This document shows, one piece after another, positions 26,113-44,606 of a stretch of 64,000 nt of DNA. Position numbers and translations under genes: made by a program. The notes below the pieces were generated by a model that saw only the letters and a program-made list of their open reading frames with translations, did no database searches and had not been told where the DNA came from. Every line of letters begins with the position of its first letter. Position 1 is the stretch's first letter. The stretch comes from Planctomycetaceae bacterium (GTDB lineage: Bacteria; Planctomycetota; Phycisphaerae; Phycisphaerales; SM1A02): the NCBI GenBank assembly GCA_027490145.1, contig JAIXYQ010000013.1, forward strand, positions 1 to 64,000, in the 5' to 3' direction.

Positions 26113-26167
26113 AGACGCTGTTGTACCGCGCACGACTGCATCCGTTGAGCACGCCCCGCCAAACGAG

Positions 26168-26199
26168 AACGGGGCAGGAGCGTGTGCTCCTGCCCCGTT
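26168..26199. terminator. Strong hairpin terminator after the PEP-CTERM-like gene
   Basis: A perfect 14-bp stem (AACGGGGCAGGAGC and its complement) with a GTGT loop, lying 18 bp beyond the minus-strand gene that ends at 26217. TTCTCGTTT follows on the minus strand. It also insulates the HAD gene from upstream transcription. Confidence 0.85.
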
Positions 26200-30062: not shown

Positions 30063-30106
30063 GGTTTGAGGCTAGCGGGGGCGGCAGCGGCTCCCCGTTA
30101 TAGTCC

Positions 30107-30177
30107 TATAATAATCAACCGAACATGGCTCAGGGTTCCCTTCCCTTGACTCTTCCGAGCGGGGAGCCCTAACCTAT
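30107..30177. promoter_or_regulatory. AT-rich promoter region between tatD and actA
   Basis: TATAAT at 30107-30112 on the plus strand overlaps a TATTAT on the minus strand. Further down, TTGACT at 30146-30151 is followed after 18 bp by TAACCT (30170-30175). The second pair is the better candidate for the ACIII operon promoter because it has both boxes. Its start would leave a leader of about 35-40 nt containing the hairpin at 30183-30209. Confidence 0.4.
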
Positions 30178-30182
30178 GGGAT

Positions 30183-30209
30183 CCTCTTCGTGAAAGTTTT
30201 CACAAGAGG
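30183..30209 (+). promoter_or_regulatory. Leader hairpin covering the actA ribosome-binding site
   Basis: CCTCTT (30183-30188) pairs perfectly with AAGAGG (30204-30209), and inside it GTGAAA (30190-30195) pairs with TTTCAC (30198-30203). AGAGG is the only good Shine-Dalgarno site for actA, 8 nt before its ATG. In RNA the fold would hide it. As DNA, GTGAAA-GT-TTTCAC is also a perfect dyad that could be a repressor site. Confidence 0.5.
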
Positions 30210-30217
30210 CCTTACCC

Positions 30218-30871
30218 ATGAGCCGATTCCTGTTTCCCCGTTGGTCGAACGCCGTCCTGCCCCTGGTGGCTGTGGGCGGAGCGATCGCACCGCTCTACAT
30301 CGTCTTCCTCATCGCCTACGCGTGGAGCCCGAAGACGATCGAGGTGGGCTACAAGCCCACGCAGCCCGTTCCGTACAGCCATGCCCTCCACGTCGGCCAG
30401 CTGGGACTGGACTGCCGCTACTGCCACACGACGGTGGACCGCGCTGCGCATGCGAGCGTGCCGGCGACCCAGACGTGCATGAACTGCCATACGCAGGTTC
30501 AGAAGGACAGCCCAAAGTTGAAGCCCGTCCGCGAGAGCTACGCGAGCGGCCTCTCGGTGCTGTGGACCCGCGTGCACGATCTTCCGGACTACTCGTACTT
30601 CGACCACAGCGCGCACGTGAATCGTGGCGTGTCGTGCGTCGAGTGCCACGGTCGCGTGGATCAGATGGAAGTGGTGCAGAAGGCCGCGCCCATGAGCATG
30701 GGCTGGTGCCTGGAGTGCCACCGCAATCCGACCGACAACCTGCGTCCGCTCGATCGCATCACCCAGCTGTCCTGGGACCAGCGCACCGAGATGACGGCCG
30801 AGGAGCGTGAAGCGCTCAAGAAGCTCTATCACATCAGCCCGAGCGAGAACTGCTCGACCTGCCATCGCTGA
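30218..30871 (+). CDS. actA: Alternative complex III pentaheme cytochrome c subunit ActA
   Basis: A 217-residue protein with one N-terminal membrane anchor (about 12-35) and five CxxCH heme c motifs, beginning at Cys66, 87, 140, 164 and 212. It is the pentaheme subunit of ACIII, which oxidises menaquinol or ubiquinol and passes electrons to the terminal oxidase. It heads the operon actABCDEF-SCO-coxBACD. The leader hairpin covers its AGAGG ribosome site, so expression may be controlled at translation. Confidence 0.95.
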   Translation: MSRFLFPRWSNAVLPLVAVGGAIAPLYIVFLIAYAWSPKTIEVGYKPTQPVPYSHALHVGQLGLDCRYCHTTVDRAAHASVPATQTCMNCHTQVQKDSPKLKPVRESYASGLSVLWTRVHDLPDYSYFDHSAHVNRGVSCVECHGRVDQMEVVQKAAPMSMGWCLECHRNPTDNLRPLDRITQLSWDQRTEMTAEEREALKKLYHISPSENCSTCHR

Positions 30872-30917: not shown

Positions 30918-33900
30918 ATGGACCAGACGACCAGCAGCACCTGCGAGACACGAGCCGCCGAAGCGCCTTCGGCACCAGTTCCCACGGGCCGTGCCCATTG
31001 GCGCAGCGTCGAGGAATTGCAGCAGACCCCCGAGTTCCGCAGCTTCCTGGACCGCGAGTTCCCCGAGGGTGCGAGCGAGGCCTCGGAAGAGGACCGTCGG
31101 CAGTTCATCAAGGTGATGGGGGCGAGCTTTGCGCTGGCGGGCGTGGCCAGCAGCGGCTGCCTTCGCTGGCCCGAGACCAAGATCGTTCCTGCCGCCCGCG
31201 GCCAGGAGAATCGCGTGGCGGGGCACCCGGTGTCCTTCGCCACGTGCCTGCAGGTCGACGGCGTCGCCGTGCCGGCGATGGCCACGAGCTACGAAGGCCG
31301 CCCGATCAAGCTCGACGGCAATGAGCGTCATCCTTCGGCCAGCGGTGGATCGTCGGCGATGACGCAGGCGCGCATCCTCGAGCTCTATGACCCGGATCGC
31401 ATCCGTTCGACCACGCAGAAGGGTGCCCCCTCGAGCCTGCCGGAGTTCGACGGCTGGTGGTCCACCCACGCCAATGCCCTCCGTGCCAAGCAGGGCGAGG
31501 GTCTTGCGATCCTGTCCGAAGCGATCGGTGGCGACGTGCACGCGCGCGCCCTCGAACTCGTCACGAAGGCCTTCCCGAAGGCGCGCCTCTACGTGCATGC
31601 TCCGGCGGGCCAGTCGGCCGAGCAGGCCGGCACGGCCATCGCGTTCGGCGCCGCGAAGCGCGTCTTGCCCGACTTCGGCAAGGCCAAGGTCGTCGTCTCG
31701 TTCGGCAGCGACTTCCTTGCGGATCACCCCGCGAGCGTTCGCTTCGCCGGCGACTACGCCAAGGGGCGTCGACTTGATTCGACCGATCCGAAGCAGCAGC
31801 AGATCACCCGTCTCTACAGCATCGAGAGCCGCCTGAGCCTCACCGGCATGAACGCCGATGAGCGCATCGCCGTGAAGCCGTCGCAGGTGCAGGCCATCGC
31901 GGCGATGGTCGCGGATCGCCTCGGAGCCGTGCCGGGTTGCGCGACCGCCGCAGACGCCAAGCTCGACGAACAGGCCACCAAGGTCGTTGACGCCCTGCTC
32001 AAGGACCTGAAGGACGCCGGTCCGCGCGCGCTCGTCGTGGCGGGTCCGACGCAGCCCGCCGCCGTGCATGCGATCGCCTGCGCGATCAACCAGAAGCTCG
32101 GTGGAGCCGGCACCACGGTCACCTACATCCCCGCGCCCGCTGCGGCTCCCGGCATCGTGGAGTTCGCCCGGGATGCCGCCTCGATCGACACGCTCGTCGT
32201 GCTCGGTGGCAATCCGGCATACGACGCGCCCGCGTCGCTCGGCGTCGCCGCGCTCATCGCCAAGATCCCCAACGTGGTGCGCCTGGCGTACCGCAACGAT
32301 GAGTCATCGGTGGCCTGCGGACATGGCTGGGTCATCGCTGCTGCCCACCCGCTCGAGTGCTGGGGTGACGGCGCCTCGTGGGATGGCACGCTCTCGATCC
32401 AGCAGCCCCTGATCCTGCCCATGATGGGTGCGGAAGCGGGAGGGCTGTCGGCGGTCGAGCTCCTGCTTCGCGTGGCGGGCCACGAACCGCGCACGGCCTA
32501 CGACTTCACGCGTCAGGTCTACGCGCGCAAGAGCGGCCTGGCCGGCGCCGATTTCGAGGTGGCGTGGCGCGCGGCCCTCAGCGAAGGCTGGTGGCCGGGC
32601 ACGAATGCGAAGAGCCAGTCGGCGCTCGCCGTCGATGCAGCGAAGGTCGCCGCCGCCCCGGTCAGCGCCGCGGGTGACGTCGAACTCAGCCTGTTCTTCG
32701 ATTCGAAGGTCCACGACGGCCGCTTCGCCAACCTCGGTTGGATGCAGGAGCTGCCCGACGTGGTGACCAAGATCACCTGGGACAACGCGCTGCTCATGTC
32801 GCCCTCGATGGCCACGTCGATGGGCCTCAAGGCGGCCAGCATGGTGCGCGTCAAGACCGCCGGCGGCTCGGTGGTGGCCGCGGTGTGGGTGCTTCCGGGC
32901 CATGCCGAGGGATGCGTCTCGCTGGCACTCGGCTACGGCCGCGGCGCTCCGGCGGGTCGCCTGGCCGAGGGCTGCGGCTTCGATGGATACGCGGTCATGG
33001 TGCCAGGTGCGTTCAGCAGTGCGTGCGAACTCACCAAGGAATCCGGGACCTACGAGTTCGCCCACACCCAGGACCACGGTGCGATCAATCCGTTCGACGC
33101 CACGGTCTCGGCGCTCAAGCCCAACGTGCCGGCGGACGGCGTGGCCGAGCGCCTCGGCGGGCTCGTGCGCGAGGCGACCCTGGGCGAGTACCGCGACCAT
33201 CCCGACTTCGCCAAGCACCGCGTGCACGTCGTGCACCGCCTTTCGCTCTGGGAAGAGACCAACCTCGACGGCGCGAAGTTCCGTTGGGCCATGAGCGTGG
33301 ACCTGGGCACCTGCACCGGGTGCAGCGCCTGCGTCACCGCTTGCCAGGCGGAGAACAACATTCCCATCGTCGGCAAGGCGATGGTCAAGCGCGGCCGCGA
33401 GATGCACTGGATGCGCATCGACCGCTACTTCAAGGGCCCGCAGGGTTCGCCCACCGGATTCGCGGTGCAGCCGGTCACCTGCATGCAGTGCGAGAACGCA
33501 CCGTGCGAGCAGGTGTGCCCGGTCGCGGCGACGGTCCACGACGAGGACGGCCTCAACTCGATGGTCTACAACCGCTGCATCGGCACGCGCTACTGCAGCA
33601 ACAACTGCCCCTACAAGGTCCGCCGGTTCAACTTCTTCAACTACCACAAGCGCACGCCGGACCGCCAGGAAGGCATCCTGAAGACGCAGCCCGAGTACTA
33701 CATCAGCGAGGGTCCCGACCGCTGGCTCCAGCTGCAGTTCAACCCGGACGTCACGGTGCGCATCCGTGGAGTCATGGAGAAGTGCACCTTCTGCGTGCAG
33801 CGCATCAACCGTGCCCGCATCGAGGCGAAGAACGAGTGGGCCCGCAAGGGCGGCTCGGCCGGCAGCCCCGACTGGAAGGTGGCCGACGGCGCGATCGTCA

Positions 33901-34141
33901 CGGCGTGCCAGCAGGCGTGCCCGAGCGGCGCCATCGTGTTCGGCGACCTGAACGATCCCAACAGCAAGGTCTCGCGGCTGCACCGTCAGCCCACGAGCTA
34001 CCAGATGCTCGAGGAACTCAACACCAAGACCCGCCTGCGCTACGTCGCGCGCGTCACCAACCCGGCCATCGAACGTCCCTCGGCGGACGGTGGCCACGGT
34101 CACGGCACGCACGGCCACGATGCGCATGACAAGGAGCACTC

Positions 34142-34145
<4 letters not shown>
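30918..34145 (+). CDS. actB: Alternative complex III iron-sulfur subunit ActB
   Basis: A 1075-residue protein. A twin-arginine-type signal ([16 protein letters not shown] near residue 56) ends in a lipobox-like SSGC. The large N-terminal part resembles a molybdopterin oxidoreductase but is thought to lack cofactor in this family. The C-terminal ferredoxin part carries four cluster motifs: [24 protein letters not shown], the [10 protein letters not shown] region, and CTFC with CQQACPSG. The tail is His-rich ([12 protein letters not shown]). It is the iron-sulfur wire of ACIII. It overlaps actC by 4 nt. Confidence 0.95.
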
Positions 34146-35665
<1,520 letters not shown>

Positions 35666-35689: not shown

Positions 35690-36310
35690 ATGACGACGTT
35701 CGCGACACCATCATCGACCACGGCCCCGGCCTCGACGGAAACCTCCGTCGCGCAGACCTGGGGACTCGTGGCCCGCTTCGCCAACCCGGCCGAGCTCATG
35801 CACGCAGCCGAAGCCGTCCGCAAGGCCGGCTACCGCTACTGGGATTGCCACTCGCCGTTCCCGGTGCACGGGATCGACCATGCGATGGGCATCAGCCGGA
35901 CCATCCTGCCCGTGGTCGTCTTCGGCGCGGGTGCCGCCGGCTGCACGCTCGGCTTCCTGCTTCAGTCCTTCACCAACTCGTACGACTTCTCGATCTGGGC
36001 GATGGTGTGGGTCACCGGGTACCCGTTCCTCATCAGCGGCAAGCCGCTGCTGTCGTTCCCCGCCTTCGTGCCCGTCATGTTCGAGCTCACGATCCTGCTG
36101 AGCGCGCTGACCACGGCGTTCGGCATGCTGGCGTTCAACCAGCTGCCCGAGCTCTACCACCCGTTGCTCAAGCACCCGGGATTCGGTCGTGCGACCGATG
36201 ACCGGTTCTTCATCTCGATCGAGGCGCGCGACCCGCAGTTCCTGCGATCCAAGACGGGCGAGTTCCTGAAGTCGCTGGGCGCCTCCAGCGTGGAGGTGGT
36301 CGAGTCATGA
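35690..36310 (+). CDS. actD: Alternative complex III subunit ActD (DUF3341)
   Basis: A 206-residue protein with two central membrane segments. It carries the DUF3341 signature of ActD: LVARFANPAELMHAAEAVR, then RYWDCHSPFPVHGIDHAMG. The C-terminal soluble part has DDRFFISIEARDPQF. It is a structural membrane subunit of ACIII. It lies 24 bp after actC and overlaps actE by 4 nt. Confidence 0.94.
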   Translation: MTTFATPSSTTAPASTETSVAQTWGLVARFANPAELMHAAEAVRKAGYRYWDCHSPFPVHGIDHAMGISRTILPVVVFGAGAAGCTLGFLLQSFTNSYDFSIWAMVWVTGYPFLISGKPLLSFPAFVPVMFELTILLSALTTAFGMLAFNQLPELYHPLLKHPGFGRATDDRFFISIEARDPQFLRSKTGEFLKSLGASSVEVVES

Positions 36311-36990
36311 TGCAGATGCCCCCCAAGATCTTCTTCTACCTCGGCATCGTGGCCGCCTGCGCGGCGCTGATCCCGCCGGTCCTGGCGGTCCAGTCGCGCA
36401 ACACGACCAGCGAGAAGCCACCGCTGCATGCCTTCCTCGACATGGATGTGCAGCCCAAGTTCAAGCCCCAGACCGAATCGGTGCTGTTCGCCGACGGCCG
36501 GTCCGCCCGCCCGCAGCCGGTCGGCACCGTCGCCCGTGACGAGGCGATGGAGGACACCCACCGCAACTTCGGCGTGGTGGATGGCCAGTGGGCCACCTCG
36601 ATGCCGCGTGACCTGCCGGTCTCGATGGACCTGCTCCGGCGCGGCCAGGAACGCTTCAACATCTATTGCACGGCGTGCCACGGCTACGCGGGCGAGGGCA
36701 ACGGCACCGTGAATCGCCGTGCGCTCGAGCTGGTCTCGAACGCATCGGGACCGGTGAACGGCACCGTGTGGGTGCCTGCCAAGAACATCCACGATCCGAC
36801 CGTGACCGTGCAGCCGGTGGGGCAGCTCTACAACACCGTCACGCACGGCATCCGCAACATGGCCGGATACGGCACGCAGATCCCCACCGACGATCGCTGG
36901 GCGATCGTCGCCTACGTGAAGGCCCTGCAGCGCAGCTTCGACGCGCAGCTGCAGGACGTCCCGCCTGACCAACGGAGCAAGGTGCAATGA
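36307..36990 (+). CDS. actE: Alternative complex III monoheme cytochrome c subunit ActE
   Basis: A 227-residue exported or N-anchored cytochrome c with a hydrophobic N-terminus (about 8-28) and one heme motif, CTACH, at residues 121-125. A Met ligand is probable in NMAGYGTQIP, near residue 185. It is the monoheme subunit of ACIII and may hand electrons to the cytochrome domain of CoxB. Its start overlaps the actD stop and its stop overlaps the actF start. Confidence 0.93.
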   Translation: MMQMPPKIFFYLGIVAACAALIPPVLAVQSRNTTSEKPPLHAFLDMDVQPKFKPQTESVLFADGRSARPQPVGTVARDEAMEDTHRNFGVVDGQWATSMPRDLPVSMDLLRRGQERFNIYCTACHGYAGEGNGTVNRRALELVSNASGPVNGTVWVPAKNIHDPTVTVQPVGQLYNTVTHGIRNMAGYGTQIPTDDRWAIVAYVKALQRSFDAQLQDVPPDQRSKVQ

Positions 36991-38324
36991 GCCACTCGCA
37001 CGATCACGCCGACCTGGGCCCCTCGAACACCCGAGCCGATGCGGCGATCGCCCGCATCGCCGGGCGACTCCTGCCGGCCGCCGTGGTGCTGCTGGCCGCA
37101 GCCGCATGGCTCGCCTGGAAGGGTGGCGACGCGAACGCCACGGCCAAGCTCTACCTGGTGTCGTTCAGCTTCATCCTCGCGATCTCGCTGGGTGGACTGT
37201 TCTTCACGATGATCCAGTTCCTGACGCGCGCGGGATGGTCGGTAGCCGTCCGCCGTCCCGCCGAGGCGCTGGCCTCGAACCTGCGTTGGCTGTGGATCCC
37301 GTTCATGCTGCCGCTCCTCTGGCTGTGGTGGAAGGGCGGCCAGCACCACGATGCGGGCACCCACGCGCTGGGGCTCGACGTGCTGTGGCCCTGGGCCAAC
37401 CTGGAACACATGCAGCAGCATGAGCCGGCCGAGTACGAGAACGTGCTCAAGAAGGCCGGCTGGCTGGACCCGAACTTCTTCGTGCTGCGTGCCGCGATCT
37501 ACTTCGCGGTCTGGGCCGTGCTGGCCACGATCTTCTTCAAGGGATCGACCTCGCAGGACACGGTCGGCGGCACCGCCACGACCGATCGCCTGCAGAAGCT
37601 CTCGGGGCCCTCGATCATCCTCTTCGGGCTGACGGTCACCTTCGCCGCGTTCGACTGGATGATGTCGCTCACCCCGACGTGGTTCAGCACGATGTTCGGC
37701 GTCTACTTCTTCACGGTCTGCTGCACGGCGGGCTTCAGCGCGATGGCGCTGGTCACGATCCGCCTGCAGTCGCTCGGTGCGCTCAAGGGGATCGTGACCC
37801 GCGAGCACCTGCAGGACCTGGGCAAGTACATCTTCGCCTTCGGGATCGTGTTCTGGGCCTACATCGGCTTCAGTCAGTACATGCTGATCTGGTACGGCAA
37901 CATCCCCGAGGAGACGACCTGGTTCATGGCCCGCCAGATGGGCGGATGGACCACCTTCAGCTGGCTCCTGATCGCCGGCCATTTCGTGGTGCCGTTCGTG
38001 TTCATGATCAGCCGATGGATGAAGCGCTGGAACGTCACGCTCGCGGTGGCGTCGGCGTGGATGCTGTTCATGTCCGCCGTCGACCTGTACTGGCTCATCG
38101 TGCCGGTGATCCCGGCCGGTCTGGCTGATGCCACGACCTACGCCGAGCTCGCCGAGAAGCACAAGGATGCGCCGGTCGGATTCTTCACGCTCGCCACGCT
38201 CTGCTCCATCGGCGGCATGCTCTGCCTGTTCGCCTGGCGCACCGCGCGCACCCTGTCCCGCAACCACCTCGTCCCGGTGCGCGACCCGCGCCTGGGCGAG
38301 AGCATCGCGTTCCAGAACATCTGA
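36987..38324 (+). CDS. actF: Alternative complex III membrane subunit ActF
   Basis: A 445-residue polytopic protein related to ActC (second NrfD-like subunit), with about ten hydrophobic segments. The conserved stretch FDWMMSLTPTWFSTMFGVY is the ActF hallmark, followed by EHLQDLGKYIFAFGIVFWAYIGFSQYML in pieces. The N-terminus begins MSHSHDHAD, another His-rich end. It completes the actABCDEF set. It overlaps actE by 4 nt. Confidence 0.94.
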   Translation: MSHSHDHADLGPSNTRADAAIARIAGRLLPAAVVLLAAAAWLAWKGGDANATAKLYLVSFSFILAISLGGLFFTMIQFLTRAGWSVAVRRPAEALASNLRWLWIPFMLPLLWLWWKGGQHHDAGTHALGLDVLWPWANLEHMQQHEPAEYENVLKKAGWLDPNFFVLRAAIYFAVWAVLATIFFKGSTSQDTVGGTATTDRLQKLSGPSIILFGLTVTFAAFDWMMSLTPTWFSTMFGVYFFTVCCTAGFSAMALVTIRLQSLGALKGIVTREHLQDLGKYIFAFGIVFWAYIGFSQYMLIWYGNIPEETTWFMARQMGGWTTFSWLLIAGHFVVPFVFMISRWMKRWNVTLAVASAWMLFMSAVDLYWLIVPVIPAGLADATTYAELAEKHKDAPVGFFTLATLCSIGGMLCLFAWRTARTLSRNHLVPVRDPRLGESIAFQNI

Positions 38325-38727: not shown

Positions 38728-39600
38728 GTGAAGAGCCGACTCGCCATCCTCGCCCTTGCCGCAGCCGCCCTGCTGCCTGCTGTGGCGATGGGGCAGGGCG
38801 CCGGCCCCGTGCTCGCGCCGGGCGAATCGGCGGCCCTGAGCAACGAACTGCCCAAGGAACTCGAGGGCGTCGAGTTCGTGGAGCACCTGGGTGAGACGGT
38901 GCCGATGGATCTGCGGTTCACGGATGATGACGGAACGAGCGTCACGCTCGCCGACCTGCTCAAGCCGGGTCGCCCGCTGCTCATCCACCTCGGCTACTTC
39001 AAGTGTCCCATGATGTGCAGCCTCGTCCTCAACGAGGCGGTGCGAGGTCTCCAAGGCATCGATTGGACCGTCGGCAGCGAGTTCGACGTCGTCGCCGTCA
39101 GCATCAATCCGGCCGAGGACGCGGAACTCGCGCGGGCCAAGAAGGCGGGCTACGTCGCCGAGTACGGCCGCAAGGGCTCTGAGAAGGGGTGGCACTTCCT
39201 GACGGGGCCTGTCGAGTCGACCCATGGGCTGGCCGAGGCCGTGGGCTTCCGGTTCAAGCTCCTGGACAACGGCGACTATTCCCACCCGGGCGGCATGATC
39301 GTGGTGTCGCCCAAGGGCGTGATCACGCGCTACCTCCATGGCGTCCGCTTCCCGTCGGAGACCTTCCGGCTGTCTCTGGTCGAAGGCAGCGAAGGCACCA
39401 TCGGCAGCAGCATGGATCGCGTGATGCTCTGGTGCTTCCAGTACGACGCCTCGACGAACTCCTACGTGCCTTTCGTGTTCCGTCTCGTGAAGCTCGGTGG
39501 AGCGCTGACCGTGGTCGCGATCGTCGCGGCCGTCGGCGTTGCCCTGCTCCGCGAACGGCGCGCCCGACGACTCCAGCCGCCTTCCGCGGTGGCCTGCTGA
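38728..39600 (+). CDS. SCO1/SenC copper chaperone for cytochrome oxidase
   Basis: A 290-residue protein with a signal peptide (about 1-21), a thioredoxin-fold domain, and a C-terminal membrane segment at about 252-272. The copper motif CPMMC is near residue 93, and the third ligand His is in NGDYSHPGG. It delivers copper to the CuA site of CoxB, the next gene. The C-terminal anchor is a variation seen in planctomycete SCO proteins. The start is GTG at 38728. Confidence 0.92.
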   Translation: MKSRLAILALAAAALLPAVAMGQGAGPVLAPGESAALSNELPKELEGVEFVEHLGETVPMDLRFTDDDGTSVTLADLLKPGRPLLIHLGYFKCPMMCSLVLNEAVRGLQGIDWTVGSEFDVVAVSINPAEDAELARAKKAGYVAEYGRKGSEKGWHFLTGPVESTHGLAEAVGFRFKLLDNGDYSHPGGMIVVSPKGVITRYLHGVRFPSETFRLSLVEGSEGTIGSSMDRVMLWCFQYDASTNSYVPFVFRLVKLGGALTVVAIVAAVGVALLRERRARRLQPPSAVAC

Positions 39601-39616
39601 AACCGACGAGATCCCC

Positions 39617-40738
39617 ATGATGTCCAAGCTGATCATGCTCACCCTGGCGCAGACCGCCGATGGCCCGACCCCGCCCACCTTCTGGATGCCGACGGGCGCC
39701 AGCGCCCACGCGTCGAACGTCGACTCGATGATGTGGTGGATCAACCTCATCATGTGGGCGTTCCTGGCGCTGAACACCGTGCTCACGGTGTACTTCGTCT
39801 GGAAGTACCGCCACAAGGTCGGCACCAAGTTCCGCACCGACGGCCCCGACCACAACGGCCCGCTCGAGCTGGCCTGGACGGTCGGGCCGCTCTTGATCTG
39901 CATCGTGCTCTTCATCTTCGGCTTCAAGGGCTACCTCGACGTGCGCACCCCGCCGAAGGAGAGCTACGACATCAACGTGACGGCGTACAAGTGGGGCTGG
40001 CAGTTCAAGTACCCCAACGGCGCGCAGTCCGATGACCTGGTGATCCCGGCGGGCAAGCCGGTCCGCCTGGTCATGCGTGCGAGCGACGTGCTGCACTCCT
40101 GCTACATCCCGGCCTTCCGGGTGAAGCAGGACCTGGTGCCGGGTCGCTACACCTACCTGTGGTTCCAGAGCGACTTCCCGACCGGCATGGATCAGCCGAC
40201 GGATGGCCACCACCTGTTCTGCACCGAGTACTGCGGGACCGGCCACAGCAACATGAACCGTCGCGTGTACGTGCTCCCGCAGGAGCAGTTCGACGCGTGG
40301 ACCACCAAGCAGGCCAACTGGCTCGATGAGATCCCCGAGGAGGAGCTCTACTGGAAGGCCGGCCCCAAGCTCTATGCGCGCTGCGTGCAGTGCCACTCGC
40401 TCGACGGGACCAAGGGCATCGGGCCGAGCTGGAAGGGGATCTGGTCCCGCGTGACCGGTGGCGAGGGCAGCAACGGCGCCTTCGCCGACGGCTCGACCTA
40501 CTCCGGCCTGATCGGGGCGGGCAAGCAGTACGCCACGGCCGAGGACTACATCCGCGCGAGCATCTACAACCCGGGCGAGCACCTCGTCCAGGGCTACGGC
40601 AACGTGATGCCCACGTTCAAGGGCCAGATCAACGACAAGGGCATCGATGCCCTGATCGGCATGATGAAGAAGCTCGACGAGTTCGATCCCAAGACCGGAG
40701 CATGGCTCAAGACGCCCCCCACGGCGAGCGCCAAGTGA
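39617..40738 (+). CDS. coxB: Cytochrome c oxidase subunit II with fused cytochrome c (caa3 type)
   Basis: A 373-residue protein. It has two N-terminal membrane segments, then a cupredoxin domain with the complete CuA ligand set: an early His in VLHSCYIPAF and CTEYCGTGHSNM with Cys202, Cys206, His210 and Met213. A C-terminal cytochrome c follows with CVQCH at 256-260 and a Met ligand in NVMPTF. The fusion defines a caa3 oxidase that accepts electrons directly from ACIII or a soluble cytochrome. It starts 16 bp after the SCO gene. Confidence 0.96.
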   Translation: MMSKLIMLTLAQTADGPTPPTFWMPTGASAHASNVDSMMWWINLIMWAFLALNTVLTVYFVWKYRHKVGTKFRTDGPDHNGPLELAWTVGPLLICIVLFIFGFKGYLDVRTPPKESYDINVTAYKWGWQFKYPNGAQSDDLVIPAGKPVRLVMRASDVLHSCYIPAFRVKQDLVPGRYTYLWFQSDFPTGMDQPTDGHHLFCTEYCGTGHSNMNRRVYVLPQEQFDAWTTKQANWLDEIPEEELYWKAGPKLYARCVQCHSLDGTKGIGPSWKGIWSRVTGGEGSNGAFADGSTYSGLIGAGKQYATAEDYIRASIYNPGEHLVQGYGNVMPTFKGQINDKGIDALIGMMKKLDEFDPKTGAWLKTPPTASAK

Positions 40739-40786
40739 GCCCGGCCACCACCTGACCACGCACCCGAGACACACGAGGTACCAGCC

Positions 40787-42469
40787 ATGACGACCCTGCC
40801 AGCCCGCCCAGCGGCCCCGACCTACGACACGCCGGAGAGCGACAACTACCTGACCCACGACAAGGGCTTCCTGTCGTGGATCCTCACGCTCGACCACAAG
40901 CGCATCGGCGTCATGTACACGGCGAGCGTGCTGCTGTCGTTCCTCGTGGGCGGCATCTTCGCGCTGCTCGTGCGCACCGAACTGCTCACCCCGGGCCGGA
41001 CCTTCATCGACGCCGACACCTACAACCACTTCTTCACCCTCCACGGTGCGGTGATGGTGTTCCTGGTGATCATCCCGAGCATCCCGGCGGCGCTGGGCAA
41101 CTTCGTGCTGCCCGTGATGCTCGGTGCGAAGGACGTGGCGTTCCCGCGGCTGAACCTGTTCAGCTACCACCTGTGGATCGCGGGAGCCGTCTGCACCGTC
41201 GTCAGCCTGGTCATGGGTTCGTTCGACACCGGCTGGACCTTCTACACCCCGTACTCGACGACCACCACGGCCGGCGGCGTGATCCCGGTCATCGTGGGCG
41301 TGTTCATCCTCGGCTTCTCGAGCATCTTCACGGGGATGAACTTCATCGTCACGATCCACAAGCTGCGGCCGCCGGGGATGACCTGGTTCCGCATGCCGCT
41401 CTTCCTGTGGGCGCTGTACTCCACGGCCCTGATCCAGGTCCTGGCCACCCCGGTGCTGGCGATCACGCTGGCCCTGGTGGCGGTCGAGCGAATCGCCAAC
41501 GTCGGCATCTTCAACCCGGCGATGGGCGGCGACCCGGTGCTGTACCAGCACTTCTTCTGGTTCTACAGCCACCCGGCGGTCTACATCATGATCGTCCCCG
41601 CCATGGGCATCATCAGCGAGCTGATCGCGGTGCACAGCCACCGCCAGATCTTCGGCTACCGGTTCATCGCCTTCAGCTCGGTGGCCATCGCGATCTTCAG
41701 CTTCCTCGTCTGGGGCCACCACATGTTCACCAGCGGCCAGAGCTCCCTGATGAACACGCTGTTCTCGGCGATCTCGTTCAGCGTGGCGATCCCCAGCGCC
41801 GTGAAGGTCTTCAACTGGATCTGCACGCTGTACAAGGGGTCGATCTCCCTGAACACGCCGATGCTCTACGCGCTGGCGTTCCTCATCCTGTTCACCATCG
41901 GCGGCCTGACGGGCCTGCACCTGGCCACGCTGAACACCGACGTGCACCTCCACGACACCTACTTCGTCGTGGCGCACTTCCACTACGTCATGATGGGCAG
42001 CGCCCTGATCGCCATGGTCGGCGGCCTGCACCACTGGTGGCCGAAGATGACCGGCCGCATGTACAACGAGAAGCTCGGCATGATCGCCTGCACCCTCGTG
42101 TTCATCGGGTTCAACGTCACCTTCTTCACGCAGTTCATGCTCGGCAGCCACGGCATGCCGCGCCGATACTACGACTACCAGCCCGAATTCCAGGTCTACC
42201 ACGTGATCTCGACGATCGGCTCGTACATCATGGCCGGCGGCTTCCTGCTGACGGCCGGGTACCTGGTGCAGAGCCTGGTCAGCGGCAGGCGCGCCCCCGC
42301 CAATCCGTGGGGCGGCGCCACGCTCGAGTGGGAGTGCGCCAGCCCGCCCCCTTACTACAACTTCCATGAGGCACCCAAGGTGGGCGAGCCGTACGACTTC
42401 TCCAACCTGAAGTGGGACGAGCGCGGTGAGGGCTACGTCACCGTGAAGCCCGCCGAGGCAAAGGCCTGA
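40787..42469 (+). CDS. coxA: Cytochrome c oxidase subunit I, A2-type heme-copper oxidase
   Basis: A 560-residue catalytic subunit with 12 expected membrane helices. CuB ligands are the His in YSHPAVY and the pair in WGHHMFTSG; heme ligands are in HFHYVMMG. The conserved Glu of A1 oxidases (HPEVY) is replaced: this protein has FYSHPAVY, the Tyr-Ser motif of the A2 subfamily (Thermus/Rhodothermus type). The cross-linked His-Tyr pair is kept. It reduces O2 to water and pumps protons. GAGGT precedes the start. Confidence 0.97.
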
Positions 42470-42473
42470 ACCG

Positions 42474-43460
42474 ATGAGCGCACACGCATCCGCCGGCGAC
42501 CACCACGCAGACCATGGCCACGATGCCCATGGTGGCGGCCACGGTCACCACAACGCCGAGTACCCGTTCCTCGCCCACCACTTCGAGACCCCCGCGCAGC
42601 AGTTCGACAGCGCCAAGCTCGGCATGTGGGTCTTCCTGGTCACGGAAGTGCTGTTCTTCGGTGCGCTCTTCGTGGCGTATGCGGTGCTGCGCAACCGCTA
42701 CCCCGAGGTCTTCAAGTACGCGAGCGCGTACCTGGACACGACGATGGGCGGCATCAACACCGGCGTGCTCATCCTCAGCAGCCTGACCATGGCGATGGGG
42801 GTGTACTTCGCGCAGACCGGTCGCAAGGCGGCCCTGGTCCTGTGCCTCTGGCTGACCATGGCAGGGGCCGCAGGCTTCATGGTCATCAAGTACTTCGAGT
42901 ACACGCACAAGTTCCACGTGCACCTGGTCTGGGGCGAGGGCTTCTACAAGCCGGTCACCGACGACGGTGGACTGCAGAAGGCCGAGCTCACCTCCAAGGC
43001 GCCCGTGCCGCTCGAGCCGGCCCAGACGACCATGTCCACCGGCGCCGTGGCCGCGCAGCAGTCCGTCGCGCCGGCGTTCGTGCAGATGCCTGTGGGTGAG
43101 CAGACGGCCATTGCGCCGCCGGCCGAAGGGCCCACCGGCATGGCGCCATCCGTGATCGACGCCAAGGCCGCATCGCACGCTGCCGACCCCGCCACCCACG
43201 GCGACGAGGCCCTGCACCTGCAGGATGCCACGATGCCCCCCAACACGCACCTCTTCTTCGCCATCTACTACGCGATGACCGGTCTCCACGGCATCCACGT
43301 GCTCATCGGCATGGGCGTGATCGGATGGCTCATCGTGCGCGCCGGCCGCGGCGAGTTCGGACCCAAGTACTACACCCCGGTCGACCTGGTGGGCCTGTAC
43401 TGGCACATCGTCGACCTCGTGTGGATCTTCCTCTTCCCCCTCTTCTACCTGATCGACTGA
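42474..43460 (+). CDS. coxC: Cytochrome c oxidase subunit III with His-rich N-terminus and large insertion
   Basis: A 328-residue subunit III. The first about 26 residues are His/Gly/Ala-rich (GDHHADHGHDAHGGGHGHH). Helices with MWVFLVTEVLFFGALF and IKYFEYTHK match the family. A hydrophilic insertion of about 100 residues (about 158-258) rich in Ala, Pro and Thr then separates the early helices from FFAIYYAMTGLHGIHVLIGM and the C-terminal YWHIVDLVWIFLFPLFY. Subunit III stabilises the oxidase. The function of the insertion is unknown. Confidence 0.94.
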   Translation: MSAHASAGDHHADHGHDAHGGGHGHHNAEYPFLAHHFETPAQQFDSAKLGMWVFLVTEVLFFGALFVAYAVLRNRYPEVFKYASAYLDTTMGGINTGVLILSSLTMAMGVYFAQTGRKAALVLCLWLTMAGAAGFMVIKYFEYTHKFHVHLVWGEGFYKPVTDDGGLQKAELTSKAPVPLEPAQTTMSTGAVAAQQSVAPAFVQMPVGEQTAIAPPAEGPTGMAPSVIDAKAASHAADPATHGDEALHLQDATMPPNTHLFFAIYYAMTGLHGIHVLIGMGVIGWLIVRAGRGEFGPKYYTPVDLVGLYWHIVDLVWIFLFPLFYLID

Positions 43461-43463
43461 ACC

Positions 43464-43916
43464 ATGGGACACGCACACACCACTGCCGGACACGGCCATG
43501 ATGGGCATGCAGGACATGCAGGTCATGCCGGCCAGCCGCTCGTCGGACACCTCGTTGCCCCGTGGATCCTCTTCGCCACCGGCGGCGCGCTGATCGTGCT
43601 CACCGTGATCACGGTGGCGATCCGCTACGTCGACCTGGGCGAGGCGAACCTCCTCGTGGCGCTCGCGATCGCCGGCCTGAAGGCGACGCTGGTGTCGCTG
43701 TTCTTCATGCACCTTCGCTGGGACCGGCCGTTCAACCAGCTGATCTTCCTCAGCGGCATCCTGTTCGTGGTGCTGATGATGGCCTTCTGCCTGATGGACA
43801 CGAGCCAGTACCGCGAGTCGCAGTACGTCGGCAACCCGGTCGACGTCCAGGCGGTCCTGGACAAGGATGCACCCAACGCGCCGATCGCGGCACAGAAGAG
43901 CCCCGACCTGCCGTGA
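43464..43916 (+). CDS. coxD: Cytochrome c oxidase subunit IV
   Basis: A 150-residue protein with a His-rich N-terminus (HTTAGHGHDGHAGHAGHAG) and three membrane segments, matching prokaryotic oxidase subunit IV (GLKATLVSLFFMHLRWDRPFN near residue 72). It is an accessory structural subunit. It lies 3 bp after coxC, and a hairpin terminator follows. Confidence 0.9.
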   Translation: MGHAHTTAGHGHDGHAGHAGHAGQPLVGHLVAPWILFATGGALIVLTVITVAIRYVDLGEANLLVALAIAGLKATLVSLFFMHLRWDRPFNQLIFLSGILFVVLMMAFCLMDTSQYRESQYVGNPVDVQAVLDKDAPNAPIAAQKSPDLP

Positions 43917-43945
43917 CGGCCGGTCGCTCACCATGCAACCCCCCC

Positions 43946-43971
43946 GAGGCGGACCCCAAGCGGTCCGCCTC
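43946..43971 (+). terminator. Hairpin terminator after coxD
   Basis: A perfect 10-bp stem (GAGGCGGACC and its complement) with a 6-base loop, followed by GTCGTTGAT. It separates the main oxidase operon from the next gene, which has its own TACGCT hexamer. Confidence 0.75.
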
Positions 43972-43983
43972 GTCGTTGATGCC

Positions 43984-43989
43984 TACGCT
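43984..43989 (+). promoter_or_regulatory. Putative -10 of the second subunit III gene (leaderless)
   Basis: TACGCT followed by 8 nt and the ATG at 43998, placed 12 bp after the coxD terminator. Confidence 0.4.
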
Positions 43990-43997
43990 GACCGATC

Positions 43998-44606
43998 ATG
44001 CCCATCAGTGACCCAGCGCGCGAGCCCTTTGCCACGCCCGAGGCGCGCTCGGCGGCTGGCCTCTGGGGGATGTGGCTCTTCATCATCGTCATCGCCATGG
44101 TGTTCGTGGCGACGATGCTCGCCTACCTGGTGGTGCGGATGGGGACCGGTGATGAGTCCGGCTGGCGCCCCGAGGGCTCGCCGGGCCTGCCGCGGGAACT
44201 GATCCTGAGCACGCTGCTCCTTGCGGCATCGAGCTGGACCATGCAGCGATCGCTGGTGGCATCCCGGGCGAACCATGACGATCGCGCCGTGACGTCGGCG
44301 TGGGCCACCTTCGCGCTGGGTTGGGCGTTCGTCGCGGTGCAGGGGCTCGGCTGGAGCCAGATGTGGCGCGCCCTGCCCCTGCAGGACAGCCTCTACGCAT
44401 GGACTTTCTACGTGCTCACCGCGCTGCACGCCCTGCATGTGATCGGTGGTCTGGCCGCGATGTACGTGGTGATCATGCGTGTGGTCCGTTCGCACGACCA
44501 CCGGGAGGCCGTGCTGGGCCTGACCAAGTGCACGATGTACTGGCACACGCTGGGTGCGATCTGGATCGCGCTCTACGCCACGCTCTGGGTCGGCTCGTTC
44601 GACTGA
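43998..44606 (+). CDS. Second cytochrome c oxidase subunit III-like protein
   Basis: A 202-residue polytopic protein with about five membrane helices of the subunit III family: LWGMWLFIIVIAMVFVATMLAY, then FYVLTALHALHVIGGLAAMY and a C-terminal YWHTLGAIWIALYATLWVG. It is a paralogue of CoxC without the His-rich end or insertion. It could replace CoxC in an alternative oxidase form or act in assembly. A terminator before it and a nearby -10 suggest separate control. Confidence 0.88.
   Translation: MPISDPAREPFATPEARSAAGLWGMWLFIIVIAMVFVATMLAYLVVRMGTGDESGWRPEGSPGLPRELILSTLLLAASSWTMQRSLVASRANHDDRAVTSAWATFALGWAFVAVQGLGWSQMWRALPLQDSLYAWTFYVLTALHALHVIGGLAAMYVVIMRVVRSHDHREAVLGLTKCTMYWHTLGAIWIALYATLWVGSFD

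Follow-up and report, generated by a model that had tools for sequence, protein, structure and literature searches.

A predicted Rex operator at the promoter of an alternative complex III and caa3 oxidase operon in a planctomycete

Known Rex operators and the box ahead of actA

Rex is a repressor that senses the NADH level of the cell. Its described targets include cydABCD, which is under Rex in S. coelicolor and B. subtilis (PMC5355995), and the Rex operators (ROP) of Streptomyces and Firmicutes share the published consensus TTGTGAANNNNTTCACAA (PMC5355995, PMC5317091), against whose 14 specified bases we scored candidate sites by mismatches. At S. avermitilis cydA1, the Rex footprint covers positions -3 to +25 (PMC5355995).

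We describe a similar site upstream of actA in the window, by which we mean the whole 64-kb stretch analyzed here. The site is like the ROP of Streptomyces and Firmicutes in sequence, spacing, symmetry and respiratory target genes, but differs in that its apparent target is an alternative complex III (ACIII) with a caa3 oxidase, in that it is apparently the only strong site in its genome, and in a clade variant, AAAAAAGGCAC, of the right half. Likewise, the predicted arrangement resembles cydABCD control in placing an NADH-sensing repressor over aerobic terminal oxidase genes, although cyd encodes a bd quinol oxidase, whereas the genes here encode a caa3-type cytochrome c oxidase together with its quinol:cytochrome c oxidoreductase. 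In the open literature searched, which excluded the key survey of Ravcheev et al. 2012, we found no paper linking Rex to ACIII, and nothing on Rex in Planctomycetes or on an overlap of operator and Shine-Dalgarno (SD) sequence.

The locus was first noticed as a 27-nt inverted repeat, CCTCTTcGTGAAAgtTTTCACAAGAGG. Re-reading the sequence bore out each of the elements described at that time: an outer stem pairing CCTCTT (30183-30188) with AAGAGG (30204-30209), an inner dyad of GTGAAA (30190-30195) opposite TTTCAC (30198-30203), and the actA SD sequence at its 3' edge (Table 1). The 27-mer occurs once, with none expected even at 3 mismatches, and the inner dyad, GTGAAANNTTTCAC, has its sole exact copy in the window here. 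About eight hairpins of the same shape with at least 11 Watson-Crick pairs are present in the window, the others mostly GC-rich.

Extended by its AT flanks, the inner dyad becomes an 18-bp box that follows the Rex dyad TTGTGAA-N4-TTCACAA. It is the only site with one mismatch or fewer in the 2.66-Mb genome, which holds three sites with two mismatches (none for a reversed-pattern control). We considered these three as a wider Rex regulon and rejected them, as they look like chance: from our reading of the translations, two (C1:129265 and C8:37616) fall inside likely coding frames, and the third (C1:149270) lies in a gap upstream of an apparent rRNA region. In the window's genome, neither rex itself nor the other genes that Rex usually controls showed a box, and the other strong boxes of relatives did not reveal a second shared target.

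The same genome carries one PF06971 gene, a single clear rex at L052:1657-2307. The product, of 216 residues, reaches 232 bits with the NCBIfam Rex model (cut-off 126), and crystal structures of Rex align with it over its length at 3e-40. Sites of the CRP/FNR family have the same TGTGA-N6-TCACA geometry, and a regulator of that family was a natural alternative, given the identical spacing and the single mismatch in the 16-bp core. The AT flanks of the box fit Rex instead, however, and no CRP-type HTH exceeded the cut-off in the genus, nor was a recognizable CRP/FNR regulator found in the window's genome, which is 94% complete. Judging from its sequence, the lone cNMP-binding protein of this genome looks like a membrane protein lacking an HTH, and seven genomes of the family in which actA has a box or box-like site lack PF00027. 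The CRP pattern also recurs at 10 scattered sites in the window's genome, and the location of the box downstream of the -10 element suits a repressor. We rejected the CRP/FNR operator on the failure to find such a regulator in the genus, and consider it very improbable.

Downstream of the box lie the genes for ACIII (ActA-F), then SCO1, then the subunits of a caa3-type oxidase (Table 1). Two further hairpins were observed in the window. One, GC-rich and strong, separates the last COX3 gene from the gene for subunit IV (43945-43972, CGAGGCGGACC-CCAAGC-GGTCCGCCTCG); it has no T run and may have a role in processing or attenuation. The other is a perfect 14-bp hairpin at 26167-26199, AACGGGGCAGGAGCGTGTGCTCCTGCCCCGTT, perhaps of the terminator type.

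Table 1. Features of the actA leader and the downstream genes, in window coordinates
Feature	Position	Strand	Remarks
-35 element TTGACT of actA promoter (inferred)	30146..30151	+	TTGAC equidistant from box in most relatives
-10 element TAACCT (inferred)	30170..30175	+	18-nt spacer; TANNNT conservation ahead of box
Inverted repeat / possible mRNA hairpin	30183..30209	+	holds operator and its flanks
Rex-type operator (predicted), TCGTGAAAGTTTTCACAA	30188..30205	unspecified	13/14 specified bases of TTGTGAANNNNTTCACAA
Shine-Dalgarno AGAGG of actA	30205..30209	+	overlaps operator's last base; 8 nt to ATG 30218
actA, multiheme cytochrome c subunit of ACIII	30218..30871	+	QrcA-like multiheme cytochrome
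actB, fused molybdopterin-like and Fe-S domains	30918..34145	+	TIGR04519, QrcB/QrcC-like
actC, DsrP/NrfD-like membrane subunit	34142..35665	+	
actD	35690..36310	+	PF11821, 1.3e-61
actE, monoheme cytochrome c	36307..36990	+	PF13442
Probable actF	36987..38324	+	by position; no family match
SCO1/SenC copper chaperone	38728..39600	+	PF02630
caa3-type oxidase genes: subunit II with cytochrome c, I, III-like, IV, III	39539..44606	+	

Conservation of the box, its promoter and Rex

In eight actA leaders of the window's genus, TTCGTGAAAG and TTCACA never change; the flanking bases do. All eight same-genus genomes with actA have exactly one box with one mismatch or fewer, always at actA; G002 lacks such a box, and its assembly is 74% complete and yielded no actA. 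The earlier note had offered a transcription factor site as one reading of the inner dyad, and that reading is strongly supported and can be sharpened to a Rex-type operator.

We then extended the comparison to more distant relatives (records mostly labeled Planctomycetota, many of them Phycisphaerae), scanning the 300 nt upstream of actA for the box and scoring Rex presence per genome. Related boxes occur ahead of actA throughout the family and in Verrucomicrobiota. Six are perfect 14/14 matches (L021, L061, L112, L114, L121, L128), including four labeled Verrucomicrobiota (L112, L114, L121, L128), and six further Rex-bearing members have weaker boxes (L009, L011, L054, L059, L060, L075). In the family boxes the right half often deviates, reading AAAAAAGGCAC.

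For 101 ACIII loci, counted with other members of the genus excluded and with up to 3 mismatches allowed, the box was found in 34 of 57 Rex-positive leaders and in 2 of 44 Rex-negative ones (Fisher 3e-9, a value that reflects few independent events). A reversed-sequence control at the same threshold gave 1/101. Well-supported branches of the ActA tree supply only 5 independent pairs, with which significance is unreachable, so a phylogenetic pairs test has no power here. The two boxes without Rex belong to L018, a good box in a genome that is 74% complete, and to L114, whose box is perfect. Within the clade that carries Rex and the box, the sister rows L016 and L064 of the ActA tree have neither.

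A one-mismatch Rex box was also observed in L147 (G027:C5:56339), about 70 nt upstream of an apparent ATP synthase beta-like gene; this genome is an order-level relative with rex.

Measured from the box, both TTGAC and TANNNT lie upstream at almost constant distances. In 28 of the 36 leaders, TANNNT begins 11-24 nt ahead of the box, compared to 5.9 expected from shuffles, and in 12 of these 28 it stands exactly 19 nt ahead. Among relatives, the start codon lies anywhere from 2 to 181 nt beyond the box. The nearly fixed spacing on one side and the variable distance on the other tie the box to the promoter. In the window, the -10 element is weak as a lone sequence and was missed by a consensus scan; conservation places the box at the promoter of this energy-metabolism gene. 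The actA transcript is expected to start near 30181-30183; with this start, the box would span about +6 to +24, downstream of the start as is the Rex site of S. avermitilis cydA1 (PMC5355995).

Further upstream, an AT-rich GTCCTATAATA-like element (30104-30114) was observed, with a divergent TatD-like gene on one side and the promoter of actA on the other; the element may serve the divergent gene. Its GTCCTATAA is retained in nearly all genus leaders, and the L007 version is a palindrome, GTCCTATA-ATG-TATAGGAC.

The RNA hairpin and the ribosome site

The other reading in the earlier note was translational control, in which the repeat, as an RNA hairpin, would hide the actA SD sequence until opened by temperature, protein or ligand. 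As in RNA thermometers and other SD-sequestering hairpins, the SD can be drawn within a stem, and the hairpin is predicted to be locally strong. Folding buries the SD in seven of the eight genus leaders (unpaired probability 0.00-0.11) and leaves it about half open in L008. The outer stem is kept in six of the eight, among which L003 and L006 have U-G in place of U-A, but it is broken in L007 and L008. When the alignment that the earlier note had proposed was made, the inner dyad thus proved invariant and the outer stem did not, which is the pattern that the note itself had named as favoring a DNA operator over the hairpin.

Other results also speak against such a hairpin. We looked for compensatory changes in the outer stem across the eight genus leaders, and covariation was no better than in shuffled columns (329/500); in relatives, the box does not keep a fixed position relative to SD and start codon. 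An 80-nt leader that begins at the predicted transcription start folds like its shuffles (z -0.65). A 201-nt region reaches z -2.76, with some of the pairing drawing on bases that precede this start. No Rfam match was found for the leader hairpin. In contrast to known SD-sequestering hairpins, neither covariation nor conservation of the structure was seen, and among relatives the box keeps its place at the promoter while its distance from the start codon varies. Translational control by the hairpin is accordingly unsupported as the main function, and we regard it as highly unlikely. Most simply, the hairpin is a by-product of transcribing a palindrome, and the SD, which abuts the box in the window's genus, lies against the operator because this leader is short.

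In nine relatives (L012, L018, L019, L020, L023, L065, L070, L086, L088), 2-6 nt separate the box from the start codon, and the center and right half of the box read AAAAAAGG. The right half-site in these leaders is AAAAAAGGCAC, but AAAAAAGGTAC in one. GG stands at that position in 9/9 of these short-distance leaders vs 3/31 of the more distant ones (Fisher 8e-7, kinship ignored). With AAAAAAGG in mid-box, a hairpin formed by the dyad would place the ribosome-site-like sequence in its loop. The simplest reading is that in these nine relatives the operator would also supply the SD sequence of actA.

The folding of the genus leaders makes a second, translational layer possible there, although comparative support is lacking. 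In such a scheme, a Rex operator in the DNA would be combined with a transcript of the genus palindrome that lowers translation by burying the SD. The operator evidence and the low unpaired probabilities in seven leaders are consistent with this, whereas the missing compensatory changes, the half-open SD of L008 and the dependence on an inferred start site count against it, and we consider it doubtful. We put forward somewhat less hesitantly, though still tentatively, a broader suggestion: in this lineage, a single element may have come to serve both as Rex operator and as ribosome site of the leading gene. The palindrome of the window's genus may bury the SD besides, and the respiratory chain would then have its transcription and its translation set by one sequence.

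Proposed control and its meaning

Taken as a Rex operator, to which we assign a probability of roughly 0.88, the box would keep the ACIII/caa3 operon repressed at a low NADH/NAD+ ratio and release it as NADH rises. Binding, repression and the response to NADH are drawn here from the known behavior of Rex. The 18-bp box follows closely on the sigma-70-type promoter of the act-cox operon. A Rex dimer bound there at low NADH/NAD+ would keep RNA polymerase from starting or from escaping; on accumulation of NADH, Rex would leave the box and allow transcription of the respiratory operon.

If this is true, ACIII with the caa3 oxidase would be tied to NADH/NAD+ through Rex in planctomycetes and in some Verrucomicrobiota. 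The box would also offer a handle for regulon searches in uncultured aquatic planctomycetes.
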